A stretch of DNA of 64,000 nt from Glandiceps talaboti (lineage: Eukaryota > Hemichordata > Enteropneusta > Spengelidae). Made by a program: the position numbers and the translations under genes. Location of the stretch: assembly GCF_964340395.1 (NCBI RefSeq), contig NC_135566.1, positions 5,556,501-5,620,500 of the forward strand. The letters are read 5' to 3'. The notes under the pieces were generated by a model, which saw only the letters and a list, made by a program, of their open reading frames with translations, did not search any database and had not been told where the DNA came from. Position 1 is the stretch's first letter, and each line of letters opens with the position of its first letter. Positions 1-50,223 of this stretch are shown piece by piece.

Positions 1-12
1 TTTGCGATAGGA

Positions 13-262
13 TTTGATGGTGAAGAGAAGTAAAGCAAACTATAAGATAACGGCATTTGATGATGAATAAGGGTACTGGAAATAAATTGAGAGATAACTT
101 TACACCACAATATATTTGATGATGAATAGTGATACTAGAAATAGTGAGATAACTTGACAAGAGTTGGCGATGAATAAAGGTACTAATAGTGAGATAACTC
201 AACAATATTTGATGATGAATAGAGGTACTGGAAATTACATGATAATTCAACAGTATTTGTAG
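13..262. repeat. Degenerate tandem repeat, ~45-58 bp units
   Basis: About five imperfect units built on 'gatgatgaatagnggtactggaaa' followed by a variant of 'gagataactnnacaatattt'. Unit length varies and the array decays on both sides. Lies left of the last recognised channel exon, so probably intronic or 3' of that gene. Confidence 0.75.
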
Positions 263-587
263 GCTGTGTGATCAATTGCCAAACTAAAAGATAAATGTTC
301 ATAGTTCATTTTACAAAAGAGAAAACAGACACTGAAATACAAACACTGTCACATAACTATTGATAGTTCCCTACTTTCAGGTACCTATTTGTTGATTTTG
401 ATATTGGAAATTTCAATTACAAGGACACATTTTTCCTTCATCTGTCATTGTCAGGATATTCTGTTCAAGGTCATTTATCATCAGTAACTGATACCTATAT
501 GTTTTATAGGCTGTCTAAACTAATAATAAAAATTGACAGATTGTGTTATCAATATGTAATTTAGAAAGAAATGTCCAATATATAATA

Positions 588-965
588 TGAAATTTTCACA
601 GCCAGGGATGTTTTTATTACTTAGACATACGGTTTTAATTTATGATGAAAATTTCAGCCAGGGCCATTTTTTAGAAATAGGATGGGTAATTTCCTGTGGA
701 TATGAAATTTACACAGCCAGGGATGTTTTTATTGCTTAGACATACAATTTCAAATTTTTATGAAATATGAACTTTTCCCAGCCAGGGATTTTTTTAATGT
801 AATAACACTTGGCACAATATGTTGGAAGTACAAAGTAATTTCTTATGAATATGAAAGTTTCACAACCAGGGATGTTTTTATTGCTACATACAATTTTTAA
901 TTTATTATGAAATGTGAAATTTTCTCAGCCAGGAATGCTTTTATTGCTTATGGACATATGATTGT
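588..965. repeat. Degenerate tandem repeat with a 'cagccagggatgttttta' core
   Basis: The core recurs six times (near 599, 657, 716, 779, 866 and 928), usually followed by 'ttgcttagacatac' and a 'tatgaaat' motif, with spacing of roughly 58-87 bp. No coding potential seen. Confidence 0.75.
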
Positions 966-3900
966 TAATTTCTCAGCAATAGAATCATTCTTCTTTTTAT
1001 CCTGCAACCATCATAAATCACATACTCATCTTCATATCCCCTGACAAGTTTAATGACAAGATACCTTCTGTGAGACCATGATATAATCAATTTCTCATTG
1101 CTTGCTTGTGGATTACAAATGAAAATTGGGTTCGTTTTCATCTTGTTTACCAAAGTATCCGATCACAGCAGTCTAACTATGCTACTGACAATCAGTTAGT
1201 GCTGGTTTCTAATCAGTGTTTCCGAGTGTTCTATGACGCAAATGTCTTTAATGTCACATTTTTCACAGCTGGGTTTCGTCATATCATAGGAGCATGATAG
1301 CAAGATAGCTGTTCTTAATGTGGTTGACATTTAGAAAGGTGGTTTAATGTTAGATCTAATATGTGTTAGAAGTATAGACGGATATGAAAACTATTTGTAA
1401 AGTTTTAGTTGGAGATTGAATTATTAAAGTACCATATTATGTCTTCCTTTTGAAATAATTTTTTTCAAAAACTTTTGTGGTAATTAAGCCTTCAGTTTTC
1501 TAAGATAGACATAAACTAGAATTATCATCACAACATGTTGATTCAACAATGATAAGCTATTGAATGGGTGTTGGTTTAAATATAGACGTAGTAGGGTGGC
1601 ATATAGCAGAGTTTTATTGACAGAGTTCCATGAACTTGCAGTGTACTGTTTTGGGACTTCCAGTGTTTACACTATCATGATCACAAGGTGATTAGAATCG
1701 TGCAACAGGAACCGTTATCACCCACTTTTGTAATCTACCACATTGAGGAATGATAGATTTATTTTAGCACCTATCTTAGTAAACCGAAAGCTCGATTACT
1801 AGAGTCGTATTTTGGTTCAAGACAACTCAAATTCGTCATCATTTACAACCAAAATAAATTGCTCCCTGAGGTGCATTCTATCTTTAATAAGAAAAGCTCC
1901 CCTTGTTTTTTATTTTCACCAAAGTTAGCAAGAGGTTTGAACAGTATATATTGTCTAACTCATCAGGCATAAATAAAACTGGTCTCTCATATTTTGAAGT
2001 CAAGACAAATTTTCTTGAGCATTTGAGTCATGCATGTTAACGAGCTGCTAGCCTAATGAACACGCAAAAGCACGATTAAAAAATAATATCTTGACATCGA
2101 TGAAATTTCTCATTACAAGACATTCACTCTTGACTCTACAAGTAAAATTTGTGTATACAGACAAAATTTCTCGTCCGTTTTTTGATAACATGCTGTTTCC
2201 ATGACAACCATCACAAACTTGTCTAAGGGTCAATTGTAAATTCAGATTACATCTTTGATGTTATGCCGATGTCTGCTTGTAATTCTAGATTGTAATGTGT
2301 GATGGGAATCTAAATTACTGGCGCAGGAAAAATGATTCCATTTTCGGTGATGATTTCCAACAGAGTTCTAGTTCATACAGCAATTTTATATAATGCTATA
2401 GTTATAAAATGGAATTATCCAGGTTTCTACCATCAAAATAGAATACTACAGCAAGAAAACTACCACGGGTATTTTTAGGTGATATAGGGATGGATTATAT
2501 TTTACCAAGAAGTTAAAACTTTTTAACAAGCAACAAACGATTTGCACCTGTACGGATTCAAGACGTCAGCAACAAGCTCCTGTCTTGTGAAATTGATAAT
2601 TACAGTTCATCTAGAAAAATTTACCGACTACATAGAAACATTTCATTATTAGTCATTCTAGACTGCTTCATTTACATTTAACATGAAAAATTCTACTGCA
2701 ATCAAATTATAGTTTGCAAATATCAATCTTACAAGATGCTCATCATGCATATTAATCTTGTCATCAGGTACTAATTCACGAATTGGATTTTTTGACAATG
2801 AATTGTAGTGCGCCCTCAACTACTGAGGTGGTAGATGTGTGCATAATTACATAAATTAACATATATTATAAATACTTGACACATTGTACCAATTAAGGCT
2901 GAACTGTCAAATGTGAATAAGAACAAATCACAAGAAAAAAATGTGACTTGACACACCTGCTGGAGTTTAATCTAAAATCAATAAATACGGCTCATCTCTG
3001 GGATAATTTTGAGTACAACTAATTATCACCATGGCAATGAATACCATCATGTCCTTTTAGTTTAATTGGCTTATCTGTGCTAACATCTGGGTTCCAATTA
3101 ATGAACTGACGACAATGAAAAGATGAAAGCAGTCGCTGTTCTTAATCTGATTTCTGTTTGATAAAAAGTGATTAAGAGTACAGGATCAACATCTGCTGAT
3201 ATTGAAATAGTTATACCGGATAGTGTGTCAGGAAGTAAGGAAAACTGTATGGATTAGACTCCTGGAAGTACAACATAGGGTAATCTCTCACAGGGTTTGA
3301 AGCAAATGCCTGTATATATATCTTGATGATTAAAACTCTGTTGCTATGACAACAATGATATTATCCACTGCTTCAGACATGATGTGAAGATGAGGACATG
3401 AAAAGAGTAAAAAGTAACGAGAAGTACACAATGTAGCACAGAATACATACAATGTCTCTTTTTGTTATGATGATCGAGGAAGTCACTAAAACCACCCCTA
3501 TGTGATACTAGCTTGCAATTCATATGGGCACAAGCTGAATTTATATATTTTGGGGCATCATTTTTGCTGCATATTTAAAACATTCTGATGATATTCTACT
3601 TACTGAAGCATACTTAACCATCACTCACTAATGACTGAACTCAAACCTGGTATCAAGATATAACATATAAATGATCTGATGACATAATTTATATACATAT
3701 AAAGAATGTCAAGGAAACCCCTGCTATGCAATCAACTGTTATAACAATGCCAGAAGACAACTGTAATGTCATAGAAGGTAAACATTGACATAAACATTGT
3801 ATTAAAATAGTTTCATCAAAGTTTTATGCATGTTCATTACTTACAAACTCACCTTGTGCCACTTTAATAGCTCGTGCAGCGGCCACATAGCGGCTCAATG

Positions 3901-4908
3901 ACTAGTACGCATTCGCGTCCTATATAAATTATGTGATTTTTTTGGTGGTTTTACCCAAGGATGCATTGCGGTGCAATGACTACCTATGCACGTTCTATAT
4001 ACTATGCGCATTCTCCACGTGGAGGGCGTTATCTACAATATCATCGTGAGGCAGCCTGTCACAAATGAAACTACCCTCTGTGAGATTATGGACTTTGCCT
4101 AGTTATGATATTACATAACTTAATACCTTTTTGGGAATTTGAACAGAATAACAAACATAATGTTACATAGATGACAGTGCACTGTTTGTAAAATTTAGTG
4201 ATGCCTGTATGCCATGTTCTTGAAGTATTCTACCAGCTGAGGGTTCACTGAAAATTTTGGTAAGTGGGTATAGAAATCTAGGCATGTTTTATCCTGATTT
4301 TCCTACTTTGTTTAGTTGGAGTTCCTAAACCATAGTGTAACACTGCTAAACATGTAGAAATAATCACTTTTCATGTTGACAACATGTCCTATTTATGAAT
4401 CTGTCTACGAAACACAATTACCTGTCTTCTTGGCTTGTTGCTCTAGGGCAAATTTATTTCATCTAGTTTGTACTGACATGGCTGTCATGTCATATTACAA
4501 ATTATCGTCTATAGAGAAGTGATATGGTTGTCATAGTAATGATGCTGTTGTCATGGATATTGTGATTGAAGTGACTTCTACAGAGCAGCTTTCTGGTATT
4601 GGATGTGACATTCATTTTATTAGCACGAATTCATATAACATTTTAGTTGACTCCTTGTTTCTTCCAGGTGATTGTACATCATTCATACATGAGAAACTTG
4701 TCTCCCCATCTCGTGTCTAACCTTTGACCTTGTTGTAAAGGTCAAAGTTGACTTTCTAGGTCTTTCTTTCAAAGCCTAGAGCCTTATATTACAACATATG
4801 CATCCTCACTGAATTAAGTTGTAATTGCACATTTCCATTCAAACTCACACATTTCCATTCAAACCCACATGTATGGTGTAACATATCCAAGAAAGTGCTA
4901 GTACTTAC
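966..4908. other. No gene recognised; expected location of missing channel exons
   Basis: I looked on the minus strand for the next conserved channel segments (the GWN-F-D continuation of domain II, the RPLQLLRLFKLK-type S4 and the NNW pore motif) and found none. A 62-codon minus-strand frame at 965-1153 resembles no family I know. Small inverted repeats occur, for example near 4720-4752. The segment is either part of one long intron or intergenic DNA. Confidence 0.5.
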
Positions 4909-7900
4909 ACATTCCAGCCAGAATTGAAGTATGTGGTTGGTCCCAGGGCAAGAATCTTGAGAATGGCTTCTACTGTGTAAACTATAATAGAAAATATACA
5001 ATTTAATATTCAGTTGAAAGTGTTCCTTTTTGTTCTTCCTGACAATAAAACTATTTAAAAAAAAAACCTATTAAAAAATAATGATGTGAAATGAATACTG
5101 ATAGCAGTTTGTGACATTTGATATCCAATATGTTGCCATAGAGATGAATAGATCAACAAAGTACAAGTTGGGTTTGTCAGAGTTCTTGGTAAGTCATACT
5201 GAACAGCGCCCTCTACCATATCCATACTTGAACTTTTGTTTATCATCATATGCCAGTTATACAAAAATCTTGAATTGAAAACAAGTGCATATTTTGAATG
5301 AAAATCATTTTAGGTGATGAATCATCACACGTTTTCCTTCTGAAACTCTGCAAAATATATTGACTGATTTCACAAGAGTTCCGTCTAATTAGGACATGCT
5401 TATCTATAAAATAGAACCAAAGTATTGAGAATAAAATTTAAAATATTCACAGGATTCATTTTCTTAAAAACAAAACTCTTATGTTGACAAATATAACGAT
5501 TGTTCTTGCATCTTTATATTTCTGGTGTTCTGTTCATCCTGTGGTACAGATAATAGAATTCTTCCAAGTTTATTTGTTTTAGCTGTAAGTACAGAGATAA
5601 AACATACAACTTACTGGCTACAAACATGATGGAATACCAGGTTACTTCAAACACTATTGGTTCGCCTCGGTTACTGTCATTGTCTACAACATGAAAGAAA
5701 ACATATCAAATTTTGAGATTTCAATTTCACTTTCTTACCCTATCCACAGACAGTTCCTTACCTTACTTCCTTACTAAAACACTGCTCTTGTTTCAGAAAC
5801 AACACTGTTTCACTAAGATATCACATACATGTACCTGGTGTCAACCAAAACCTTCTTTCTACATTGTATACTACATTAAGTTCACTATCAGTCAGATGTA
5901 CACAAGATATGGAGTATGTACCAGTGTGCCTGCTAAGCCAATTTGACGTGCCACTGACGCACACAATTTCTAGTACAAAATTTGGTGTTCCCCTACCTCT
6001 TACTATGTGGTGACTCACAAGAAATGCTAGTTTTTCTCATTTTGACTCACAAAAACAAAATTCGGCTATCATTAGAGGGCACACCGGTATGTACTCTATG
6101 ATTATTACATATGTACCAGAGATTACTTACAGTTACACCGGTGAGTATGCATACTAGTGGTCTTTGCACTACAGTATAACACATTGCACAACCGAACACA
6201 TTATTGCATACTTACATGCAAATGATATGCAAATGAAGGCATGATCTTTTGTTGAACACAAAAAGCGTGTGATCGCAATGTCATTTTTATTGAAATTTGC
6301 TGTTTCAAAGAAACATACACAGTAATTTCAGAATCCCATTCTGCATGAGTTCCAGTGTGGGTACTCAGGAGTATTTGTACTCATGCTTGCAGTGTTTTCT
6401 GCAGCACTTCCACTTGCTACGCTTATGAAAGTATGGCCACCGAGCACACTGCAAGCACTCATGCGTCATCAGGTACTGTCATATTACTGGCCCAGGGGGT
6501 TTTTTGACATGTTATATTACAAGTCTTTCAAACAATTAACTACTTACTTGAAAACTTGACAGTGTCCACCAGGAACCAGATACCATTTGCACCAATTGCA
6601 ACGTCTGTTATGAAATATCAATATAAATAAATAGAGTAGCAAGGTTGGCATATATTCAATATGTTATTTTTGATGACCCTTACTCTATCCCTGTTTGTAC
6701 TGACAATGTTCAGGAAAATAATATGAGATTAAAATGACAATAACATATTAACATGACAATTACATATTAACATGACAATTACATATTAACATTACATTAA
6801 CATAATAACATACATTAACATAACATTAACTTGACAACAACATATTAAAATGACAATAACGTGACATTAACATAATAAACATGACAACACCATATTAAAA
6901 TGACAACACCATATTAAAATGACAATAACATAACATGACATTAACATGGACAATCCAACAGCTCTATGACACAAATAGTGCACTGATTTCAAGAAGTAAC
7001 TGCCACTGTAGTAAATTTAACAACAATGACGACGACAACAAGAACGTCATTGTTGTCATCACCACCATCACCATCATCCTCCTCCTCATCATCATCCTCA
7101 TCATCCTCCTCATCATCATCATCATCATCATCACCACCACCATCAACACAATCATCACCACCACCATTTTCATAAAAGTATCACCAATAATTCAAACGGT
7201 ACTTACAAATGAAATATTCAAAGAGCTTAGATGTGACCATTTTGTGAGTACACTTGAGAAGAACATAAGGCACACGGGGTAATCTGTCAAACCAGTGAGC
7301 ATTATCCGTCTTCACCTTCCATTTCAATTCTGACATCTCATAAATCTTTGTGAACTCTTGTAATGACAAAAGTTCAGTTTCATGAGTATTTAAGGCTTTG
7401 AAAGTCAAGTACACATCTTTCTGTTTGTGCCTCGGTTTGTAATACTTCATGAGTCCTTCAAAGTGAGTAAACGGTATTTTTCCTGGATTCTAAAATTTCA
7501 AAATCAAAAAGACAAAAATGAACAGGACATCGTATATTCTTTCATAAGCATTACGGTTTTCCAGAGATGCTGAAAATGTGTTTCACACTCATGTGTTTAT
7601 TTTTGATACTGATAAACTATGAGTAAATGTAACACACTGTTACTACTGTAGTCATTAAGTCTGACATGAATGCAACAAGTTGAATATTTTCACATGTAAT
7701 GAGTACAGTTAGCACATCTGAAATTTTATTCTTATCTACTTTCAGATTGATCAACATGACACGATGTGTGTATGTGTTACGATAGGATTCTCATTTCATA
7801 GTATCATATTAAAGTACCTGTGTGAGTGTGACATACCCACTTTCAGCTATGTCTGATGGAACAGACTTTCAGTGTCATACTATTACTAAAGGTCAATTCT

Positions 7901-8487
7901 AAAGTAAAATTTTTCTACAGTGGAATAAATCTAACAAAATTGGGTATATGTGGTACATGAATAGGTACATGAAAAGGTACTGACAACATGAGCTAACTTT
8001 GATTAGAAATGTCTAATTTAGAAAAAGAAATAAAAGGCAGACATGAAGTCAAACAAATACTTTAATATCTACATTTTTGTCTTTTCTGTTGACATTTTTT
8101 TGTAATACTACCTGTAGCTTGATGTATCCCAAGAAAATCAACTTTGTGAAAATAAGTGCCAACAAGAACTAAAAACATTGTGGGATAGTATATTATAGAT
8201 TAGAGTGGATGTTAGCGTGATAAACTTACATTCATATATAAAAATCCTCTTTTTGAGAATTGATAAAAGTCACATATTTTACCTGTTTACTGCACAGAAG
8301 TTTAAATGCACATGTAGCACCTTTATATTTATGGAGTAGTAACTGTCTAAATTTCTCTTTTTCTATGCCTGTAAATGTCTCATATACAACAGCTAAAAGC
8401 TGAAATGAGATAGAATATGATAGAATATAGACATTACGTTACAAGGTGAATGAATAGTCCAGAGACTTGAATTGCAAAACTTGACAA

Positions 8488-8534
<47 letters not shown>

Positions 8535-11500
8535 CAAATACTGTTTATTTCAGTTGAAACAACATTAGAGTAAGATATGTCATGTTGTTCTGTCATTATC
8601 AGCCTAGCTCTGAAAGGGGGTTGACCGCTGTGTGAGGGCGCCCCATCATGGTGTACCTTACAAACTAAAACAATAATAATACCTTATCTGGGATGATTGG
8701 AATGATAGCCTTCATGTAAGGGTCTGGGTAACCAAGTCTAGTAATACCCAATCTGGGGTAATTGGAAGGATAGCCTTCCTGTAAGGGTTTGGGTAACCAA
8801 AACTAGATTATTTGTAGTTGCCAGTGGTAATACCTAATCTGGGGTGATTGGAAAAATAGCCTTCCTGCAAGGGTGTGGGTTACCAAGACAAGGTTATTTG
8901 TATTTGTAGTAATACTTAATCTGGGGTGATTGGAAGGATAGCTCTCCTTCAAGGGTTTGAGTAAACTAGATTATTTGTGGATTACAAAGAATATACCAAC
9001 TTTATGTACAGCAGTGATTTATTCATGCATGTTTTTCAAATTGAATAATACAATAATTGGTGGCAAGATGGCAGTTCGCAAGTTCTTTCTTGTACATTGT
9101 CACACCATACAATGTTTCTGGAAATATAGAAAGAATGAATGAGTTGAAAGTAAAACATGATACTAACCAGGTTCATGAGGAAATAAAGCTCGATTACAAG
9201 ATAGACAATGAAGAACAATGAAGCTGATCGGTGAGTATTATAGGCTGGCATCATCACATCTGGAAAACTAACAAACAAATTCACTGATTTATTACATCTT
9301 AGATTGTGGCTAACACTCATGAAAATATGGCTACAGGAAACATCATATCTTGGCAGTATTATGTGTGTTTGTGTGTATGTGTCTGCATAACAGAAAATCC
9401 CTGGGAGCAATTCCAAGCACAAAAATACTTTTTAAAAACAAACAAACAAACAAACATCATGTCATGTTTAAAGGGGAAACATCACTCCAGGAAATGAAGT
9501 CATTTTCATAAACTATGGTCCTGGAGAGTAATTTCATGATTTTTACATCACCTATAATTACTTGTGATTTCAGAAAAATATAAAGTTGATTTTGTGCCTT
9601 TATAGGGTATCTTTCCTGTGGGCTATTGCATCATGGGAGTCAGCAGAAATAATATATTCATGGTTTCACAATGAATATTCATGAGATGTTTTACACTGAC
9701 ATGTATAGGCACTTAGGACACGACAGAAGCTAAAAACTGCACTTTCATTTTGGAAAACAATGCTACTGACTGCTACAACAAAACATACACTGGATATTGT
9801 GATAGAAGCATCACATACAAAAGTCTGTGCATGGTGGTGTTGCTGGTTAAAAACACAAGAGTGTGACTTACTTGGCAGTGGTTAGTAGTATAAAGAGATG
9901 AACAAAGCAGTCTTCAAACCTCTCAAATAGGTAATTTTGTTGGTCAGGTATGAATAGATAAAATGCTGAAATTGGAAAAAAAAATAATAATATGGAATTG
10001 GAGAACAAATATGAATGAAAGAATGAATGAATGAATTTACTTCACAAGATGATAACGTTTGCAAACAATATATAAATATGTGCAAATAAAATATCTTTTC
10101 CAAAAAGAATATAAAGAAAATGAAGACTGAAATGTCTGGTGAGGACAATGGAAATAAGTAGAACTAGTCATATCCATGCAATTCCCTAAATTTCTAAATG
10201 AGATAAAGACACACAAACATAGAGAAAACAATCAGATTACATTTTCTCAGTTCATCTTGCACAAGTAAATTTTCATAAGTAAGAAGAATCTATCTGATAC
10301 AATTTTTTAAACTGGTAACAACAACTGGACACTTACCAAGAACAGCAAATATAAGCATGAAGAATAACAGAAGTACCAACATGTCTACAATCGGTGGTAG
10401 AGACTGTAAGATTTGCCTCATTACCCTGTTGATAAAATAAACATAAACACAAGAACTTCATGAATACTAAAATTTTAACCAATACACACAACATACTTTT
10501 CATATCCTGAGAGCTCTAGACTGCAAACTATCGTGTTCACTCATGATAGAGGGCACTGTTGATAAGCTGAGAGCTACAGTCAGTCTTGTTCACTCATGAT
10601 AGAGGGTGTTTTGATAAGCTGAGAGCTTTAGACTGCAAACTGTCAAGTCTTGTTCACTCATGATAGAGGGCACTGTTGATAAGCTGAGAGCTTTAGACTG
10701 CAAACAGTCAGTCTTGTTCACTCATGAACAAGAACTTAGTCATTATAAAAATGTGTTGAAATTCATTGTGACAGCAATACATTAAATTTAAGATAGATTA
10801 AAATTTAATTCGAGCTTTCATGAATTTCATTACTATAAATGTACTTATTTTGGCACACAAAATTATTAGCAGAAGACAATTTTACATTTAAACACATTTG
10901 GGTCCAGGAGTAATAAACAAATTTTGACAATGGTATTCTTATATCCACATCACTACATTGTGTGGTTAAATGTATTGATTTGAAATAAAGCCACCATACT
11001 TTACTTTATTACCTATGGTTACTCAGAATTTATCAATGAAAGTAATTCCATTGTTTCAGCTATTATATATTATAAAAACATGCATGAGCCAATTAGAACA
11101 AAAAATATGGAATATATACTCTGGTCGTTCTATGTCATGGCAACACACGTCTATGTCAGGACAACACATCTCTATGTCACTGTTTCTGATGACTGGTTCT
11201 GCTGTATTCAAAATAGAGTCAAAATTAAAATCCAAAATTACCATTACTTTCCCTAATTTTTCTTTGATTTTACTGGCACTGGTATAATTATGTTATTCTC
11301 TGACATTTGTCTTCATCCAGCCAGAAAATACTCATAACCCAAGGGTTGTCACTACTCGTCTAGTAACTCATAGTGACAAAGACCCCTCAGGTCACTTGTA
11401 TTTTCCTGGGCTGAACGAAGAAAAATATTGAGAATAATATCTACTACAAATTTAGAATCAAAATATAGACACTGACATTACCTCATAGAATTAGATTCTA

Positions 11501-14241
11501 AAATAGTCATAGCTATTTTAATGGAAATGAGTCTATGATTTGAGTTGTGTTTTCATGCAATTAGACTTACCTTCTGACTCCACCACAGTATTGTGTGTCT
11601 ATCAGAAAGATTGGTCGCAATGCTCTGGTTACTCTGAAATGACTTGTTTGCCTCACTAATACAACAATAGCTTCAGCATACATTACCAGTAAAGTGGCCG
11701 ACTACAAGGTAATGTTAAAAAGTACATAACTATACCATGCACAGGCCAAGATATTGTTTTTGAACAGAAAATATGGATTATATACCCTGGTAGAAATATT
11801 CAAATCTCAAAGCAATATCATCTCTACTTATCCAATCAGAAAGTATGTAACATTCAAATCACAAATCAGTAACTTCTACTTAGCCAATCAGAAAGCAACA
11901 TGCTTAAGCTTGCCCTTGACAATCCAATCTGACTGACTGTTGTATTTTCTCAATAATCATACTTAAATTACTTACCTTAATAGCTGTCCTCTTGTGTGTA
12001 ACAAATGTTTTGAAACCTAACCATCTCATCTTCATACCCAACTGTAATGCTATTATTGTCAGTGCAAATAACTCCAAGGAACTGTGAACCTATGATAGCG
12101 AATACAATGGAAATACCAAGAGTGATATATAGGCCCTTTTCAAAATTAAGTCAAGGGTGTGAATTTGAATCATGTTTAATTTCATCAATGAATGGCAGTG
12201 TTTATAAGACATTCCATATTGTGCCACCCTATCAGTATCAGCCACTACTGAAGAGAGAACCAGCTAGGATAAAATGACATGACATATGGTGGAAATAATG
12301 ATGGCGTTCAGTTTCAGTTATCAAACATGTTTGATAACAGTCACATTAAACCAAGTACATACATCAGCAAAAACTTAGATAAGTAACATAGTGTAAGTTA
12401 TAAACCACAGTGGGTGGGTACAATCAGATCTATTCTATCAACTTGAGCTGGGTTGTTTGAATTTCATGCCCACGGTTTATAGTATAGATTTGATTGCATT
12501 TTATACCCACCACAGTTTATTATTTGCAATATTTAAAATCAAAATGAATTACATGTATTAACTATTTACATAAATATATCATTTCTTAGTGTTAATTTTG
12601 CCATGCTCTAGAAATATATTCTCTCCAGAAGATAGATTTATTTTAAGGATGAACGTGCCTCAGTGACTAAATTTGTTTGAAAATCAAAGTAGCTTGAATT
12701 ACAAAAAACTAAATGAATGATTGTCTCCCAGCCCAGGACCTATTATACATTGTTTACATAATTCTAGCAGTTGTGGGTTTACTCATTTGCAAGAACAATT
12801 CTTGGTGTATGATTTCTTATGGAGATAGATGAGATGAAAGAGTTTAAGATTTGAAGCCACAGATAGTGTCTAGACTAGCTCCAAGTTCCTTCTTGATATG
12901 AGCTGAGAATAGATTGGCGTTTTCTTGAACAGCGAAAAGCAAAATTTTAAGGCCTATTTTTCTGAAGAACATATTATGTTCTTTTAATATGCAATATCCT
13001 ATCAAAAATCCAAAATTTTCTATAAAAATGAAAACAAAATAAACACTCACAACTTCATCCAGTTTCAGTAAATGCACAGCAGGACGTTCACATAATGCCA
13101 AAAACAGCAATAATAATGAAACTAGCAAATCTAACAAGTTAAACCAGACATTATGAACAATAAGATATGATGGTACTGCATCTTGGTTCTTTGGGTGAGT
13201 TGTAAACCTTTCATTATTCTTTCCTTCTTCTAAGTAAATGGCAGCTTCCTGATAATTTAATTTCCAAATTTGGTTTTCATCAGAACGGCTGTTGCTTCGC
13301 ACTGGACTTGGTCCTTGTTGAAATGGAAGAGAAAATATAAAAACAGTTAACAACTGTGCAATAGTTTCAGGGGGTCTCAACCTGAGAGAATTATAAAGAT
13401 AAAATTTAGATAGACTAGAATACTTTGTACCTCAGACCACTTTTAGTGGTCTGAGCTTGTACCAACCTAGGAGTGCCAGTGGTACCCCGGTTAAACAGTT
13501 GGGGAACTTGTACACCTGACACTACTTGGGTAGATTTTACCTACTAACCACACATACCAAAAAACATCATCTTACAATTTTTATTTTTAAAAATTTATTT
13601 ACAGGATTTGACTGACGATTTCTAATAATTTTCTATATTGGATTCAAGATTAAAAAAAACACTCACTGGGCAAAAGTCATTTACAGCTTGCACATAACTG
13701 AAAAAAAACACCCTGAATTTAATATTATACAGTATGATTATTATAAGGACAATTTTGACTCACACAAAAAATGTCATTCACAGTTAAGTTTGCACATAAT
13801 TGAAAAAAAAAAATCAATATTGAAGTATTAAATACTGTATAGTAGGTACATGGATATGGACAACTATGACACAAGAAATGTCATGCAGAAGCACGTATTT
13901 TAAGTTGTGCACGCTTCACCATATGCTCCAGCCGACACAGCAGCGAGATGCTGACAATTTTATTTATATCGTAAGAATGGAAAAGTTAGACACAAAAGTT
14001 GTAGTTCACAACATTTGCTTTCGTTTCATTCAATTTCAATAAAATATAAATCATAGAAATTATATTTCAATGGAAAATGTGTTCATCTCTCAAAGTACCT
14101 ATAGTGGAAGTACAGTTGATATTGTTCACGTGCATATGTATGCTTTATATGAAATGTCAAAATTGCGTCGTTACCTGAACTCAATGTTAGTGTTTCGGGC
14201 ATTTGCTCCAGAAGGGGACTTCCGTCATTCACAGCTGCCAT
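4909..14241 (-). CDS. TPCN1: Two-pore cation channel, TPC1-like (5' part, 12 exons)
   Basis: Two-pore channels are endolysosomal cation channels gated by PI(3,5)P2, voltage or NAADP signalling. Coding exons in transcription order: 14175-14241, 13051-13313, 11976-12089, 11571-11701, 10337-10425, 9872-9965, 9168-9267, 8283-8399, 7207-7489, 6548-6604, 5615-5683, 4909-4981. Every junction has GT/AG and the phases match, giving about 485 residues. Start [11 protein letters not shown] is the only ATG in phase with exon 2. Landmarks: [12 protein letters not shown] after residue 40; domain I S4 [13 protein letters not shown]; pore-1 filter TTAN at 250-253, split by an intron, then FPDVMMPAY; inter-domain linker YYKPR...YLTFKALN; domain II S1-S2 ending at GWN. 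The vertebrate protein has about 820 residues, so the remainder of domain II and the C-terminus are missing here. TPC1 is favoured over TPC3 by sequence and by the IQCD neighbour; TPC3 is not excluded. Confidence 0.92.
6075..6500 (-). repeat. Composite dispersed repeat (family A), inverted copy
   Basis: Read on the minus strand, a foldback unit (about 6480-6328, arms containing 'gcatgagtgcttgcagtgtt'-like words) is followed by a tail with 'agtaatctctggtacata' and 'tatgtaataat'. The same two modules in the same order occur at 27975-28450. Intronic in the channel gene. Confidence 0.75.
6730..6948. repeat. Degenerate 'catgacaataacatatta' tandem repeat
   Basis: About twelve imperfect units of roughly 17-20 bp alternating 'acatgacaa' with 'ttaacata'. 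Intronic. Confidence 0.85.
7033..7165. repeat. (ATC/ACC/TCC)n trinucleotide-rich tract
   Basis: Imperfect tract of atc, acc and tcc triplets, which creates long artefactual His/Met/Ile open frames on both strands. Intronic, just left of the channel exon at 7207-7489. Confidence 0.85.
8486..8534. repeat. (AAAT)n microsatellite
   Basis: Twelve uninterrupted aaat units. Intronic in the channel gene. Confidence 0.95.
8678..8980. repeat. Tandem repeat, four ~65-86 bp units
   Basis: Four units beginning 'taataccnaatctgggg' (near 8678, 8743, 8829 and 8911), each continuing with 'attggaaggatagccttc' and 'gggtttgggtaaccaa'. Intronic; well preserved between units, suggesting fairly recent expansion. 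Confidence 0.88.
9469..9717 (+). repeat. Dispersed repeat (family C), copy 1
   Basis: About 250 bp sharing, in order, 'cctttatagggtatctt', 'ctgtgggc', 'atgaatattcatgaga' and 'cacttagg' with an inverted copy at 21630-21845. No open frame. Family unknown; non-autonomous element suspected. Confidence 0.75.
10505..10735. repeat. Tandem repeat, ~50-65 bp units
   Basis: Four units of 'gagagctttagactgcaaac', then 'gtcttgttcactcatga', then 'tagagggcactgttgataag'. Intronic in the channel gene. Confidence 0.85.
11085..11455 (+). repeat. Hairpin repeat (family B), copy 1
   Basis: A left module ('tatactctggtcgttctatg') is followed by a foldback module in which 'ccagccagaaaatactca', 'gttgtcactactcg', 'agtgacaaagacccctca' and 'gtattttcctgggctgaa' pair with one another. 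Related copies lie at 41585-41930, 43225-43585 and, inverted, 58525-58875. Intronic here. Confidence 0.75.
13431..13455. repeat. Perfect hairpin, 11-bp arms, 3-nt loop
   Basis: Arms ctcagaccact and agtggtctgag around ttt, in the channel intron between coding exons 1 and 2. Probably part of an old mobile-element fragment. Confidence 0.8.
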
Positions 14242-14791
14242 GTTTTTGTTATTTTCTCGTAAAATCTCGGGTGTTTATTTCGAGATTTTCCGTGAGGTCA
14301 CTGACTGACCTCGTCAATCTTCTTAGCAACGGAACGGACTATTCACTTGTGTATATTATTCCGCGCTCCTCACTAATACGGTGAAAACTCATGTATTATT
14401 GTATTTTTCAAATTTGAATCTGATGAAAATAAACAAATGAGATGTGTTAGTGTCTATTTTACTAGAAAACTATTTTCTATGTTGAAAGATTTTGTGGTAT
14501 TGGTCTCTATTTTCTTGTAAGTGTACGGAGATAATGGTTGCTGGACGGTTGCTTGGCCAACAAAACAATCATCGATACACAGTGATAGCAGCCATTGATA
14601 CTTCGGATGAGCACACCTTTATGTTTAGTATATTATAGATTTGACCCGTTATCAGTCAGTCTCCCCTATAATTACCACGCCGGCTGACGCTTCGACGCTT
14701 GGAAAAATAATTAGAGCGGGCGTGGTTTTGACCATATATGTCGTTTGCTCCTATCTCGTTGCTGGGTAAGTCTTTGATAAAAAATTAGACT
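14242..14791. promoter_or_regulatory. Divergent promoter between the TPC1-like gene and IQCD
   Basis: 550 bp separate the two initiator codons, which point away from each other, so both promoters and 5'UTRs must lie here or spliced upstream exons must be invoked. RFX half-sites GTTGCT occur at 14537-14542, 14548-14553 and 14758-14763, with AGCAAC at 14325-14330. Those at 14548-14561 and 14758-14770 extend to X-box-like palindromes with one mismatch each. RFX sites are typical of ciliary genes, which fits IQCD. A donor-like 'gggtaagtc' at 14764-14772 has no acceptor at a workable distance before the IQCD ATG. Confidence 0.65.
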
Positions 14792-17700
14792 ATGACGGCG
14801 ACAGATCTCGCAGTCAAGGAAACCCTCAGTTTGTTAGAAAAGGTGCGACAGGACGGGCCTTCGAGGGATAAAGCCAGTATGGAGGCTTTATTAAATCCAG
14901 TTCAAGCTCCTGCAATTCCAAGGGTAAGACGAGAACCAAAACAGAAGAAAACAGAAGCTCTTCGTGTTTTGGACCCAGGTAGGAAGAAATTGACAACGAT
15001 AGAATCGCAGAGAATCCTTGCCGCGTTTGAAGAGAGTATAAAAAAGGTCGAAGTCGTGACGTTGTTACCGTTTGTCGCAACAAATCTTGAACGTTACAGT
15101 GTTGTCCTAGGCGCAGAATTAGTGGCAGCAATTACAGAACATAATGAGCTAGAGAAAGCCTACACAGATCTGGTAACACCCCCTGAACCCGAGCGACCAC
15201 AGTCCAAGGCGTCCAAACGCTCAACTACACAGTTCAGTCGGAGATCGACTCCAACTTCGCACCATTCCTTTATAGAAGTTGACGTATTACCGCCTGTTGA
15301 ACCTCCAGGTAGTCGTAAGGGCAGCCCAATAAGTCGTAAAAGCAGTGCTGCACCAAGCCGGGCAAGTAGCGCTGCGAGCGAAGTTGTCACTCACACGACC
15401 GTCACTGACCCAGAAGCAGAAGCTGAGAAAGCTAGAAATATGAAAATACTAGAAACTCAGCTAGGATACTCATGTAAGAACATACTACGATTATTTACTG
15501 TTAACCCGTCTGCTGTTAATGCCGTTCGACAAGAAAAACAAGCCCGTGATATGGAATCAGGTGCTATGATAGGCTACCTTGCTGAACTCAAAGATGTTAT
15601 ATTTGAAAAATTGTTGACAACACCACTAGAAGAAAAACAGAAAAGGGATTACCTACAAGAAATTACTGTCAGGGAAAAGAAGAATTCAGAAATCATCAAA
15701 AAGATGGAAACTGAACTGAACGGATCAATGGAGGAAAAGGAAGCAGAGGTAAGGAATTATTTATGCAATTCGATTTATCATAATAAATGGTAAAATATGT
15801 CTGTCATGATATGATATTATCAATATTCAAAGCACATTTCATTATAATATAACCATGGCTATCATAGTCTGTGCATATTTACCATTTCATCTTATCTTTA
15901 TGTAATAAAGGTAAAGCTACATAAATTGTAGGCGAAACAGAGATATTATTTGAAAAAAAATAATATCACTGAAAGGACAGATTGAGTGCATGAAGTAATG
16001 TCAAAATTTTTAGTAAAAATGGAACTTAAGTTGAATTGAATAATACCATTGCTGTTGATATGTTTCTCTATTAAATTTAGATATGTAGTACAAAAATATG
16101 AAAAAGGCAACTTACACTATCACAATCAACACATACAGTACCTGTATTTGTGAAAATTGTAGAGAATTACATGTAAGTTGATATCACATTCTTGTTGAAA
16201 TTAATTCTTTGTTTTCCATTCACGCCATTTAATTTGATAGATTTCTAAGAGGAATGATGTTATTCGTCGTTTGAAAGCCGACCTCCATCAGATTGAGAAG
16301 TTCTCTGAAGACCATATTAGGAGAACCAAATCTGAAGCTGAGAAACAGCAACAGGCTGATGCTAGGAACTCGGAGGGTAAACAACAACGCTTACAAGCTG
16401 ATTTACAGGCTCTGAGAACACAACTAGCTAATATGATTGCTGAACATAGAGAAAATGAACTCGCTTTGAGAAAGGTAAGGTTATTAATTTTAGAACAGGA
16501 TGATTTTTTGCAATATCAGTATGATATGAATAAAGTCAGAAATGTCATTTATTTGAGATGAAAAAATAATAATAATAAGATGATTTGTAATGCGCCTCAT
16601 CTCTGAAGAGCTCAAAGCGCATGAATATATATACCAGGTGATCGACAGGTGTCAAAGAGTTTCTGCTTTTGACAAAAAATATTGCAACACATTCAACCTA
16701 AACCAGCAAATGTACACAAGGTCTAATGAATATATGAATTTCATGACAACTTGTAAAGTAATGCGAGACTATGTTGAATATTCATGAAAATCATAATCAC
16801 ATTAATGTTGTATTTGGTAATGTTAACTAATAAAGTATGCATGTACACAGCATTGATCAAAACATTATGACCTTCTTGTTTTAATCACATAATCTAGTCA
16901 TATGTATTAGATCAAGGGTATTAAATCAAAATATTGGTGATTTTAGTAATTTTAAGGGACTCTATATGCAACTTTTGCACCCATATCCTTATGTATTGTT
17001 GTATTTTCATATTGACCTCACTGTGGTAATACTGACTTCTGTGTATTCCTATCTTTTTTTTGCAGCGTAAATACAAGATAGAAACTGAAGTTGAAAATTG
17101 GATTCAGAAATATGATTCTGATATGGGAGAAAGACAGGTAAGGAGATTAACAGTTGAATTAAGTCAAGTTATGTAGTGGAAATAACATCACAAATATCAC
17201 ATGATATACTATTAGAGTCCATACATACCTAGTTTGTACATAGTTTGTAGTTAGTGCAGTCTTAGGTTAGTAGGTAAAATCTGCCTCAATTCCCATGTTG
17301 TCATTTTACTGGGGTTCCTCTCCAATATTATGGTATTGGAAAGTGCCAGTTTTACCGGATTTTCCCTTACTCTTACTGGGGTTCCCAGCCTTTAGCAAAA
17401 GCACTGCTATAGGTGTTGTGCCATGTTGTCTTTGTTAGCAAAATTCTAGTACAGTGTTGCTTCTTTTTTTAAGCAATTGTATTCGTAGGATTTGTAAATG
17501 TAACTCTTATAACTATCAAATTCCAGTAAGTCAAATGACAAACAGAAACCTTTCATATTGATATTGATATTGATATTGATATTTACAAATTCTTCAAAAG
17601 ATCAACATTGGCAAGTTAAATAGCATTTATGTGAAATTGAATATTCTCACAACTTGAAAAGAAGAAAAGTGATTTGGCAGTTTCAGAAGTATGGAAAACT

Positions 17701-18186
17701 AAGAAATCACTGATATCCGGGAATACATTATTACTCCTACAACACAATCAAAGGCTCATTTGACTTGATATTTACATACATTTATCACTTCAAATTAGAA
17801 AAGGGGTTATTGGTGAAGATTTTGTTCTCAGATTATTTTTAAGATGATTTGATAGATCAGTTGATTGACTGATTGATTGATTGATTGATTATTAACAGGA
17901 CGAATACGAGGAGGTAGATGCTGTGTACACTGAAGAAAAAGCTCAACTGAATGAATTAGAAGAAAGATTTAAGACTTTGGAAGAGGAATACAAGGAGATC
18001 GTTGAGGAACGTCGCATTGCAACCGAGAAGAAAGAACGTGAGGAGCGTGAGTTACAAATGATGATCAAGGCGGCAACTGTCATCCAGTCATTCTGGAGAT
18101 CCTACAAATGCCGTAAACAACTCAAAGGAAAGAAAAAGAAGGGAAAGAAGGGGAAGGGAAAGAGTGGGAAAAAGAAGAAGAAGTAG
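14792..18186 (+). CDS. IQCD: Dynein regulatory complex subunit 10 (IQ domain-containing protein D)
   Basis: IQCD/DRC10 is a coiled-coil subunit of the nexin-dynein regulatory complex of motile cilia and flagella. Four exons, 14792-15748, 16241-16474, 17066-17137 and 17899-18186, all joined in phase 0 with GT/AG, encode 516 residues. Matches to the vertebrate protein run throughout: [20 protein letters not shown] with [44 protein letters not shown]; exon 3 [22 protein letters not shown]-terminal IQ calmodulin-binding motif ([14 protein letters not shown], about 479-496) ends in a Lys/Gly-rich tail. The protein is longer than the human one (about 449) because of a Ser/Pro/Arg-rich insert at about 128-205. 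The start is the first ATG of the frame after an upstream stop. It is divergent to the channel gene and likely expressed in ciliated cells. Confidence 0.95.
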
Positions 18187-20560: not shown

Positions 20561-20672
20561 TTCCCCAGGTGAGGCTCGAACTCACAACCTCCGCATTACT
20601 CGATAACAGCCACTGTCACGACCAAGTACTGTCATATAAGTACGGCGCGCTAACCGATTGTGCCACTGGGGA
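20561..20672 (-). tRNA. tRNA-Ile (anticodon UAU), intron-containing
   Basis: Acceptor arms TCCCCAG and CTGGGGA pair fully, with discriminator A. D arm GCAC-AATCGGTTA-GCGC has one A-C mismatch. The anticodon stem is CCGTA/TGCGG and the loop starts CTTATA, giving anticodon TAT. The T arm TGAGTTCGAGCCTCA is canonical. About 38 nt lie between the anticodon loop and the 3' anticodon-stem strand, consistent with the intron usual in animal tRNA-Ile(UAU) genes. The first base is T rather than the usual G, but it pairs with A72. A pol III terminator follows. It should decode AUA codons. Confidence 0.9.
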
Positions 20673-22389: not shown

Positions 22390-23715
22390 TTATGATACCG
22401 ATTGAAACATGTCTTTGATCAATCTTTTCAACTCTTCATTGTTATCAGCAATAAACCGTTTGAGGGAGTTAGGCAACTGAAGTTGGGATACCGTTGCTAA
22501 GGACGCTTTTCCACGTGTATTTAGAGCAAGTGTTCTCCTGATGATATGCCTACACATGGCTGTAAGTGAAACAGGTACTTTGGACTTCTCCAGTAAATAA
22601 TTCACAAACACGGACTTTGTGGAAGACAATACTGTAGGTAATCTCTGTTGGTAGATATTTGGATGAAGCGTTTCTACCATTAGACGGATATAAGTTGGCA
22701 AATTCTCTGAATTAAATCTGAAATTGTCTAAATTGTTAAAAACTCCAAAAACTGCAGTATTTCCCTGATGATCAAGAAGATCTGGGTTTGCACCAAAATC
22801 CAATAAGCAATCGATAGCATCTGCGTTTCCATTCTGTGCCGCAAAGTGCAGCGGCGATCTTCCACGTTCATCTTGGACATTTGGCAGCAGACCGTGTTGC
22901 AGTAGAATTTTAACGCATTCCGCTGCAGTTTCCAGATTGCGTGAATTTGTTGCAGCTAGATGCAGTAAGTTATGTCCAGCACAAGGACTATGACAGTAAA
23001 TATTGCCACCGTATTTGATTATTTCTTGCAAAACCGTTTCATTACCACAATGCGCTGCCAACATTACAGGCGTTGTGCACTTCTCTCCATTTTCGTTGAT
23101 GGCGTTAACATCAGCACCGTATCTAACCAAATCTTTAACGCTGCCTGCTGTATTATAGTAGGCGGCAAAATGAAGTGGTGTAAATTCGTTGTTCATGGGT
23201 TCGTTGACATTCGCTCCGGCATTCCACAAACTACGTAAACTCCGCCGACACTTTTGATGCAATGTTGTCAGGTAATTTCTATATTTTCGCTCCTCAAGTG
23301 TGATATCACTATCGTCATCAAATGTAATCCTTCCCCTCGGCCAATAAATGACGACTAGATGACTTGGCCGCCTTCCCAACCTATCAGGTTGATTTGGATC
23401 GGCGCCGTTCCTAAGCAACAGATCTACGATTTCTGGCCTACGATATATGACTGCTGCATGTATTGCACGTATACCTGTATCTCGATACTCGTTTCTATGT
23501 GGGCTGGCTACACCATGTCCTGACAACAGAGGCTCATTCACGGGTACACCATCATGGACGAGTTTTTCGCAGTATGGAACGTCCCCCTTTACAATTGCGT
23601 CATGAAGAAGATGCAAAGTTGTCGATGTGCGACACGGACTGCCGCCTACACCGTTGTTTTCCACTGGATGCACATTCATCGTGTAATTTCCTGTTGTGGA
23701 ATTATAGTTTCCCAT
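22390..23715 (-). CDS. Ankyrin repeat and SOCS box (ASB) protein, intronless
   Basis: ASB proteins are substrate adaptors of Elongin B/C-Cullin5-RBX2 ubiquitin ligases. This single 441-residue frame has about seven ankyrin-type repeats (about 32-61, 80-111, an expanded one to 171, 178-208, 214-244, 248-282, 286-316), with consensus blocks TPLHFAAYYN, NLLHLAATNS and SPLHFAAQNG. A C-terminal SOCS box (about 383-425) carries BC-box SLTAMCRHIIRR and Cul5-box-like LQLPNSLKRFI. The N-terminus MGNYNS fits an N-myristoylation signal (Gly2, Ser6), which is unusual for the family and untested. I cannot assign a particular ASB number. The start is the first ATG of the frame. It lies head-to-head, 1.3 kb from ZSWIM7. 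Absence of introns suggests either a retrocopy origin or a naturally single-exon lineage. Confidence 0.9.
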   Translation of the reverse strand: MGNYNSTTGNYTMNVHPVENNGVGGSPCRTSTTLHLLHDAIVKGDVPYCEKLVHDGVPVNEPLLSGHGVASPHRNEYRDTGIRAIHAAVIYRRPEIVDLLLRNGADPNQPDRLGRRPSHLVVIYWPRGRITFDDDSDITLEERKYRNYLTTLHQKCRRSLRSLWNAGANVNEPMNNEFTPLHFAAYYNTAGSVKDLVRYGADVNAINENGEKCTTPVMLAAHCGNETVLQEIIKYGGNIYCHSPCAGHNLLHLAATNSRNLETAAECVKILLQHGLLPNVQDERGRSPLHFAAQNGNADAIDCLLDFGANPDLLDHQGNTAVFGVFNNLDNFRFNSENLPTYIRLMVETLHPNIYQQRLPTVLSSTKSVFVNYLLEKSKVPVSLTAMCRHIIRRTLALNTRGKASLATVSQLQLPNSLKRFIADNNEELKRLIKDMFQSVS

Positions 23716-25047
23716 GTCGATACTTCAAACATATTGTGAGGACGAAATAACCGGCATCGCCACGCTAAATCAATAGCACACTCAGTAAAAGTGTTCGACA
23801 ACGGTATAGGAATGGAACACATATCTCCGGAACGGCGATTTTGTCTGTTTAGAACACGCTACTACTAGTGGAACACGCTCATCTTTGCAGTCAAAAATGT
23901 CTTGCCTCATGTGCTTGTGGCATAAGCGCGTACCTGACAATTATTAGATATACAATCGAAGTGTATCGATGAAGACGAGTCGTAATTATTTTTCGAAGGA
24001 CAACCGTACTTGTGACGGTGAAAAGTTGACGAAGTTTTGTTAACATCGATTTTTTTTATTTCTAGAACCACAGACGTCTATCGTCTATGCTGAACATAGA
24101 TGCATGATTTTCTTAATGTACAAGCTAGTTACTTATTTGAGTGGTTCATATAGACAGACAGGTCCCTGTTAGAGAAGAGTCGTCTGTCGATACAGGTAGT
24201 GTAGTGTGTATATTGTGAATGTAAGCGATATTTCAGAATTAAAAATACTATTTTTACTTTAGTTTAGCAACATATTACTACAGTACAGCGACGTGTTTAT
24301 ATTTGCAGATAACGACGTCGACGATAATCACAGAATAGAGTAGACATTACGAAAAACTACTCTAATATAATACAAAAAGTGTAAAATTGTTAAACAGTCC
24401 ATGAAAAACCTTGATTGTATGTAAAAAGTGCGGTAAAGCACAGACAAGTAAGAAAAGTTTCTCACTTGTCTGTGGACGTGGGTTAAGGGTTCTGTTAACG
24501 CTGTTTTCACTGTTTTTCACGTATAGGAAAATCAACAACTACACCACATTCGTGTTTTATTTTGGTCGGGCTCTTGACAGCATCTTCCGGTCTGGTCAAA
24601 TGTAATCACAAACTATTTCTAAACCGCGGAATATAAATAGATTTACAATGACAGCGCCCACAACGGCGTATCTGTCAGTTTACTCTTGAACGAGCTCGAT
24701 AGACTTTAGCCCTGGACTATAGCTAGTTGTACTACGTACTGCCAAGAGGTGACCACTTGATGGCGCTGTTTAGATGACCTTGTGCTTCCTTCAGCAAGAC
24801 TTGACAGTTCGAATTCATCGATGTCTTTGTTTGAACCAGTTCTGCTGCCCTTAGCTTTCACTTGCTTCCTCGTGAATTGACAGTACAGTTGCATAGAACA
24901 CTGAAAGCACTCATGCAAATTCCCTGAGTACGCCACATGTACACTTGCACTCACATGGGGTTCTGTCACACTAGTTATTTATCCACGTACGTACAATCAT
25001 TTTGTGTCTTTCGTAGCAGATGAAATGAACTTCTGTCACTAACATCC
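23716..25047. other. Divergent intergenic region, ASB-type gene and ZSWIM7
   Basis: 1.33 kb holding the 5' flanks of both genes. Contents seen: a hairpin at 24440-24473 (10-bp outer arms acagacaagt/acttgtctgt) and a partial family A repeat. No additional exon recognised. Confidence 0.5.
24885..24985 (+). repeat. Partial copy of family A foldback unit
   Basis: Matches the right arm of the element at 27975-28150: 'gcaagcactcatgcnaat', 'ccctgagta' and 'cactcacannnggggttctg'. The left arm is missing. It underlies a spurious minus-strand frame. Confidence 0.65.
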
Positions 25048-47400: not shown

Positions 47401-48972
47401 TGTCGGGAGACAGAGTGGAAACGGTGCGAGTACTAGTACTTCCTATATTATCGTGGATCAGAGAAACATTAGCATCAGACTTTCAAGTGTAAGGATGGAT
47501 GCACCGGGACATTAGCACCATCTGAAATCTTGGTACACGTTATTTGTGACGCTTTGTCACTTCGTATGTGTATTCAATACAAATGTATGTACGTAAGACA
47601 TATTTGACAAAGTATATTCATGTGTGGTGCATACATACGCATTCAAATGATGGAGCCATGTTTATAAATGCGTGGACAGTGTTTTGGTTACCATGGGAAA
47701 GCTTAAGAATATACATTAGCATTCATTACATGCAATATTGTCGCTTTATGTAGGGAATCCACCCGGGAACCAACCTGTCATCATACGTCTTTCTTGTGCT
47801 CTGCAGTAGTCGCTACATGACGGTGACGGCAGAACAACCCACTCATACCCACCCATCCAGTAAGATATCTGTAATGTTGCGCATTTCACAGCTGTGTTAT
47901 TCCCGTGACCGTAATGCCAGATTGACATAAAACTGCGACGTTAACGTTCATCATCTAACTCACTCACCGGCTGTTTTTTCGTAGATAAGAGCTCTGCTAT
48001 AAACTATCTATTCCAGGTCGAACAGAAATCTGCCGATTCAAGATAATTTTCTAGGATTCTAGCTATTTTCAACTGAGACGATATCTAGCAGTCTTTAATG
48101 ATTCCTTCTCAATACGGAATCACCATAAAAATCTTCGATTTATAAGGAGTACAGGAAACACTGCTTTACGGTTATGAAACATCATTGACAGCCATACTGG
48201 AGTCGCGGAAAAAGAAAACTTGACTTCTAGGTGAAACACGATGAAGTGGTGTCTGTCATTTCCAGTTACGAATACACAAACCTGATCGATTCAACAACAA
48301 CTGAAAAGTGTTGTATGTATGACCTTACACAAAACTTATGTCAGCGCGAGTTATGGATAATCAGCTCCCGATTACATAGACTCTTTTTGTCATGCCAGCC
48401 AAGCTGCCGCACCCTACACCACTAAGATATGGTGGAATGACCCTGTAATTTGAATATTCGCATTCATAGAGACACGGTACGCTTCTGATTATCACGTAAA
48501 AATAGCAAATGTTATGTCAAGGATTATACAGCATTGTAAATGTTTATATAATTTTAGGGAGAACATATAACTAGGCTAACATTTATTTGCATCTCCCCTA
48601 ACTAAATACTGGGGAAAATTAGTTCTCCGATTACATTCATTTATTATAATTCCCAATAGTAGCATGATTATAGTTATTTTTAAAAATAAAATCTGGTAAT
48701 TTGAGCTATTAGAAAATATTGACGATATCCTAGCAAGTATTTATGTGGTCGATAAAGCCCGCACGTATTTAGTGATGGTACGCTACCTACCAGTAGAAAT
48801 AGAAACGTCTGACTTCTTAACCAACAGTAAAACGTTCACGTCCTCATAGCTGACAAACATGGAACCAGGTGAGGACGGAAATTGCGGCGGCAAATTTTCT
48901 GTTGGACTAGTCATCACGTCTTAACATCACACAGGTTGATAGTATACGTCGACCGAGTCGTGGAGTGTTACC
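44421..48972. other. Intergenic upstream of the GPCR; no confident gene
   Basis: A 92-codon plus-strand frame at 45576-45854 begins with a hydrophobic stretch (MTSFVGIFLLCIAPYYF) and has a dibasic site, but matches no family I know. A frame starting after a tag at 45866 reads VSVAWDPEPRVYMNRTPVAF then stop. I cannot connect either to a gene. Confidence 0.4.

Positions 48973-50149: not shown

Positions 50150-50223
<74 letters not shown>

Follow-up and report, generated by a model that had tools for sequence, protein, structure and literature searches.

In the genome of the hemichordate Glandiceps talaboti, the two-pore channel gene TPC1 (TPCN1) and IQCD, the gene for DRC10 (dynein regulatory complex subunit 10), stand head-to-head, which raises the question of whether the two genes share one promoter and whether the pair is old. 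We analyzed a stretch of 64,000 nucleotides from contig NC_135566.1 (C19:5556501-5620500; hereafter 'the window', and coordinates without a prefix are positions within it), and we also searched the 590-Mb genome, which comprises 47 contigs. The head-to-head arrangement was confirmed: TPC1 is encoded on the minus strand with its ATG at 14241, IQCD is encoded on the plus strand with its ATG at 14792, and the interval between the two start codons is exactly 550 bp (14242-14791). We consider it fairly probable that a single short stretch with retained CpG serves as a bidirectional promoter for TPC1 and DRC10, and that the pair is an old one.

Identity and structure of the two genes

The first-pass annotation of this locus had given these names to the two genes and had placed their starts 550 bp apart in divergent orientation, and both statements were borne out. 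In the window, the TPC1 orthologue occupies 4909..14241 (minus strand), where exons 1-6 (14241-14175, 13313-13051, 12089-11976, 11701-11571, 10425-10337 and 9965-9872) and exons 7-12 (9267-9168, 8399-8283, 7489-7207, 6604-6548, 5683-5615 and 4981-4909) form an open frame of 485 aa with canonical splice sites (12/12 donors are GT and 11/11 acceptors are AG in the exon model). The protein matched chain 6c96 over residues 58-509 of that chain with 542.5 bits (E 1.1e-161), whereas the rival chains reached 110.1 bits (TPC3, 6v1q), 89.6 bits (TPC2, 8ouo) and 81.3 bits (plant TPC1, 5tua). We take 6c96 to be mouse TPC1. Identity to mouse TPC1 was 247/452 aligned columns (54.6%), compared with 27.0-27.4% for the other three chains. 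In a five-row tree, the channel joined mouse TPC1 with a support of 89/99, short of the 95/80 that the tool requires for a star, and the other rows had long branches. The choice between TPC1 and TPC3 had been set in advance as a test of the first-pass annotation, and bits, identity and tree agree in ruling out both TPC3 and TPC2 for this channel.

The TPC1 protein also gave a PF00520 match in Pfam (116.9 bits). In the alignment, R220, R221, R224 and K331 of mouse TPC1, which we take to be the phosphatidylinositol 3,5-bisphosphate (PI(3,5)P2) site, are all kept, as R191, R192, R195 and K302. The N-terminus carries DGSPLL, which agrees with the dileucine sorting consensus. No TPC1 relative was found in the viral contigs. 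Across the genome, at least 116 exon-level Ion_trans matches were observed at E <=0.001, and some of these were clustered (e.g., C13:17561339-17579181).

The interval marked in the first-pass annotation begins at 4909, but the channel gene does not end there: this position is the donor boundary of exon 12, where the frame in the window stops inside domain II, and further exons lie to the left of the window. Two mouse TPC1 domain II fragments gave no credible match in window positions 1-4950 (lowest E 0.11 among the matches listed), and no exon was found with them in the first 40 kb left of the window (lowest E again 0.11). The search was made in a 244-kb stretch of C19 that was joined from adjacent pieces and included the sequence left of the window, and here domain II matches were found on the same strand and contig, the best pieces having E values between 6.8e-9 and 1.2e-5. 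They correspond to exons 13-18 (C19:5,510,592-5,502,103, minus strand), which have six AG acceptors and six GT donors, and exon 13 joins exon 12 in frame (GWN-VFDF). Intron 12, as delimited by the fragment searches and the 3' exons, is 50,816 bp long, and its starting part fills 1..4908 of the window (minus strand); since exons 13-18 lie beyond it, the TPC1 gene spans at least 68.6 kb. A TPC1 truncated after S2 of domain II is ruled out by these exons. Domain I and IIS1-S2 are thus encoded inside the window and the IIS3 to IIS6 pieces outside it, giving two six-transmembrane domains, and a 56-residue stretch of domain II is identical to mouse TPC1 at 39 positions. Stops occur after exon 15; therefore, at least one luminal-loop exon is absent from the model. 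This exon, expected before exon 16, was not found, and domain II could not be read through in one open frame. Two further frames were observed within introns of the gene: a rhodopsin-family G-protein-coupled receptor (GPCR) in one frame, nested in intron 12 (C19:5531236-5532354, minus strand; PF00001, 58.6 bits), and a reverse-transcriptase frame inside intron 13 (PF00078, 123 bits).

IQCD is complete in the window (14792..18186, plus strand). Its four exons (14792-15748, 16241-16474, 17066-17137 and 17899-18186, the latter ending with the last base of the stop codon) encode 516 aa. The protein was compared with seven chains, of which the DRC10 chains scored 299.4, 296.1, 65.6 and 22.2 bits and the DRC9 chains 59.3, 57.4 and 41.5 bits; the best match to DRC10 had an E value of 6.3e-88, and the weakest DRC10 chain (9y6s) ranked below every DRC9 chain. 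DRC9 (IQCG) was ruled out as the identity of the plus-strand gene by the best scores of the two families (59.3 versus 299.4 bits). One IQ motif (PF00612) was found at residues 478-497 with 27.3 bits, against a cut-off of 20.3. IQCD is given as another name for DRC10 in the available text of PMC7606486. In the viral contigs, 28 pattern matches to IQCD exon 1 were seen, and none of the 28 was confirmed.

CpG pattern of the interval and the gene bodies

At 550 bp, measured between start codons, the divergent starts lie within the 1 kb that is used to define bidirectional promoters. The inter-ATG interval (14242..14791, no strand), which we regard as a putative bidirectional promoter, has a CpG observed/expected ratio (o/e) of 1.22 and contains no TATAWAW match. 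It is part of a single CpG-retaining block that extends over both first exons (13801..15600, no strand), with an o/e of 1.01 that falls locally, over steps of 200 bp, to 0.59 and 0.67. The ratio is 0.24 in TPC1 exons 1-12, 0.31 in intron 12, 0.40 in exons 13-18 and 0.32 in IQCD past exon 1, and the window background has a median of 0.71 over 127 windows of 500 bp. Strong CpG depletion was observed at 4909-13800 and 15601-17890, and it continues through TPC1 intron 12 outside the window. Taken as a whole, the CpG level speaks against an amniote origin of the DNA.

In amphioxus, nearly all 5-methylcytosine is located in gene bodies and increases with expression, according to the available text of PMC6292497. 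The CpG depletion in the bodies of both genes is as would be expected of mosaic gene-body methylation, and we infer that Glandiceps talaboti may have gene-body methylation like that of amphioxus. If so, the locus would consist of one unmethylated start region, with a 68-kb methylated unit leaving from one side and IQCD from the other.

RFX half-sites in the interval

Fifteen motif groups were tried. The RFX half-site RGCAAC occurs four times in the 550-bp interval, compared with 0.35 expected. A fraction of 0.0005 of the 2000 shuffles, and none of 227 equal-sized tiles, gave a count of 4 or more; because 15 groups were tried, this corresponds to a P of about 0.0075 after correction, at the resolution of 2000 shuffles. 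Over the whole 64-kb window, AGCAAC was at chance (32 versus 29.4 expected). The strongest half-site class (>=10 bits) is absent from the interval, with 0.18 expected. On the IQCD side, we identified an X-box-like site for RFX, GTTGCTTGGCCAAC (14548..14561, no strand), which is an imperfect palindrome and ranks third in the window with a hand-built matrix; an RFX-like site, GTTGCTGGGTAAG (14758..14770, no strand), which lies 21 bp ahead of the IQCD ATG and ranks eighth; and an AGCAAC half-site at 14537..14542 (minus strand). Another AGCAAC half-site is found on the TPC1 side at 14325..14330 (plus strand), within a loose X-box match at 14317-14330.

The interval also contains two exact copies of the FOXJ1-like 9-mer TGTTTATTT, at 14272..14280 (plus strand) and 14427..14435 (minus strand), a number with a P of 0.002 that was seen in 2.2% of tiles. 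Two imperfect inverted repeats (14255-14295 and 14264-14443) were observed just upstream of TPC1, and the arms of the wider one (14264-14280 and 14427-14443) hold both 9-mers. CCAAT was present once (P 0.71) and AACGG three times (P 0.06). Patterns for the E-box, CLEAR, CRE, CRE half, NRF1, YY1, ETS and TATA had no match in the interval, which thus contains nothing in favor of a control of TPC1 by TFEB/CLEAR.

Across animals, motile-cilium genes are under the control of RFX factors. RFX was the top motif at the promoters of frog multiciliated-cell genes and of their orthologues in five further species, among them fly and Nematostella, and forkhead motifs were few at such promoters (PMC5245798). 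We offer RFX input at the 550-bp interval as a proposal, for which the half-site cluster is sufficient, and not as a claim.

Linkage in other species and flanking genes

Next, we considered whether the two genes are linked elsewhere. In herring chromosome 8, coding single-nucleotide polymorphisms (SNPs) have been placed in tpcn1 at 21,072,591 and 21,077,772 and in iqcd at 21,086,634 and 21,088,137 (PMC7115899). The distance between the SNPs of the two genes is thus 8.9 to 15.5 kb, a close linkage for which the available text states no orientation. In cattle, TPCN1 and IQCD are among 15 genes that are listed, in no order, as lying no more than 0.5 Mb from two SNPs, and again the available text states no orientation (PMC6125589). 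In the passages that we examined from papers naming both TPCN1 and IQCD, the pair is nowhere treated as a unit.

On the right of the pair, 10 of the 100 frames of at least 70 aa in 18200-64000 were run against Pfam, and two of the 10 gave matches. One is an ASB-type gene in one frame (22393-23724, minus strand) with ankyrin repeats and a C-terminal SOCS box, which is convergent with IQCD. The other is an aminergic-type rhodopsin-family GPCR in one frame (48943-50658, plus strand) with a long polyglutamine tract, whose best PDB matches were the 5-HT1A and histamine H3 receptors. Neither is known to be a neighbor of human TPCN1. On the left of TPC1, three long frames were compared with Pfam and gave coiled-coil-type matches only, below the cut-off. 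With an ASB-type neighbor on the right and no family above the cut-off in the three frames on the left, no larger conserved block is visible. The only Rfam match, outside the pair, was a tRNA match of 47.1 bits (20561-20672, minus strand); it spans 112 bases, which is longer than usual, and the tRNA may therefore contain an intron or be degenerate.

Origin and maintenance of the pair

The simplest account of the locus is an old divergent pair kept together by a promoter region that both genes use; in one direction it would serve a ciliary gene and in the other a general endolysosomal gene. RFX factors would bind the interval and activate DRC10 in cells that bear motile cilia or flagella, and TPC1, the product of which works in the endolysosomal membrane, would be transcribed in the opposite direction out of the same open chromatin. 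The divergent orientation of the pair probably dates back to an early deuterostome or bilaterian, and the genes may have remained linked because breakage between the starts would harm one promoter or both. Joint action of the TPC1 and DRC10 proteins would not be the cause of the linkage.

The first-pass annotation had suggested selection on a shared promoter, and the support for it is indirect yet fair: the CpG block covers both starts and the RFX half-sites are clustered, but the stricter X-box patterns show no enrichment. Several observations weigh against the account given above. The interval contains no strict X-box and two loose X-boxes, which is not an enrichment (P 0.21), and a 14-base X-box with at most two mismatches was at chance in the window (7 versus 4.5), with one match in the interval. 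A hand-built palindromic RFX matrix placed two of its eight best matches of the 64 kb inside the interval, although this matrix was built after the half-sites had been noticed. The generic FOX/forkhead motif was found twice, again without enrichment (P 0.40). CpG o/e values above 1 are not confined to the interval, given that other 500-bp windows reach up to 1.54. The first recognized gene past IQCD is of the ASB type, which is not known to be a human neighbor. The head-to-head order of human TPCN1 and IQCD (12q24.13), and likewise that of mouse, is presumed.

The sole evidence on orientation that we found elsewhere comes from herring, in which tpcn1 changes were reported at residues 245 and 537, 292 residues apart (PMC7115899). 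On mouse numbering, this spacing is matched more closely by a Q near 225-228 preceding an S near 514 than by an S at 229 preceding a Q at 543, in a rough residue mapping that depends in part on presumed residues (S near 514). If the Q change comes first, the 3' end of TPCN1 would point at iqcd. Thus, with this weak mapping, the herring orientation may lean away from head-to-head.

It could also be that two independent core promoters came to lie back to back by chance and were rarely broken up, with nothing shared between them. Divergent order is common: the available text of PMC6292497 gives 25% (3,950/15,884) of neighboring amphioxus genes in bidirectional promoters and counts 372 putatively ancestral bidirectional promoters among chordates. 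One further pair is therefore unsurprising, and although the gene identities are far above chance by their E values, the head-to-head order as such is not. However, the CpG block runs continuously over both starts and motifs occur throughout the interval. In addition, most of the 372 pairs have not persisted in vertebrates, and stem vertebrates alone lost 54.5% of them (PMC6292497), so that retention to mammals, if true, was not automatic. We regard such passive retention as rather unlikely.

A functional coupling, the idea put forward in the first-pass annotation, would go further than the shared promoter that we favor. Here both genes would be expressed together from the promoter in ciliated cells or developing sperm, where endolysosomal or acrosomal Ca2+ release by TPC1 would be used, and selection would keep the joint expression. 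The interval does have RFX half-sites toward either gene, at 14325 for TPC1 and at 14537-14763 for IQCD, and the CpG depletion of both gene bodies would be expected if both were transcribed, and hence methylated, in the germ line. Moreover, knockout mice implicate TPC1 in the sperm acrosome reaction (PMC6162333), and IQCD has been described as a protein of the acrosome that acts in the same reaction (PMC12832936). These ties to the acrosome reaction are suggestive only, and co-expression in cilia or sperm is plausible. On the other hand, mouse Tpcn1B is made from an alternative promoter and is broadly expressed (available text of PMC4386455), so that TPC1 is not a cilium-specific gene; in zebrafish, the highest expression of tpcn1 has been reported for the mature ovarian follicle (PMC7115899); and one literature search that combined TPCN1 with RFX and with ciliated and multiciliated cells found no paper. 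Such coupling is therefore, in our judgment, unlikely, and a coupling of nicotinic acid adenine dinucleotide phosphate (NAADP) signaling to the axoneme is speculation. It is more doubtful still that an RFX-driven bidirectional promoter has tied NAADP/PI(3,5)P2-linked TPC1 to an axonemal regulator from a time preceding the deuterostome or bilaterian ancestor, because TPC1 would be a conserved member of the motile-cilium or sperm program (e.g., for acrosomal or ciliary-vesicle Ca2+ release). Finally, separate origins of the adjacency in the Glandiceps talaboti lineage and in vertebrates, which the ASB-type gene beside IQCD (not a known human neighbor) and a possibly different herring orientation would favor, are very improbable, given that, by a rough estimate of ours, a chance adjacency of two given genes among about 20,000 would occur at about 1 in 10,000 per lineage.

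If the divergent pair is indeed ancestral, it would offer a concrete and cheaply testable case in which regulatory constraint has kept gene order intact for hundreds of millions of years, as well as a genetic lead to the function of TPC1 in ciliated cells and sperm, a question that has been little studied. Should it be just another divergent pair, it is a single addition to a list of hundreds.

Comparison with known systems

Compared with vertebrate TPCN1, the Glandiceps talaboti channel combines its 54.6% identity to the mouse protein with retention of the PI(3,5)P2-site residues. It differs in its N-terminus, which is shorter than that of mouse TPCN1, and in its gene, which has a 50.8-kb intron 12 enclosing another receptor gene. 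The plus-strand protein aligns with DRC10/IQCD of the nexin-dynein regulatory complex over the C-terminal coiled coil, the IQ motif and the lysine-rich tail; unlike known DRC10, it has a Ser/Pro-rich stretch (about residues 137-216), which the two best alignments skip. As a pair, the two genes resemble the ancient bidirectional promoters and metazoan microsynteny pairs that were reportedly described by Irimia et al. in 2012. There, likewise, two unrelated divergent genes have their starts a few hundred bp apart, and, as we propose for TPC1 and DRC10, a CpG-retaining gap is accompanied by a retention that has been attributed to shared cis-regulation.

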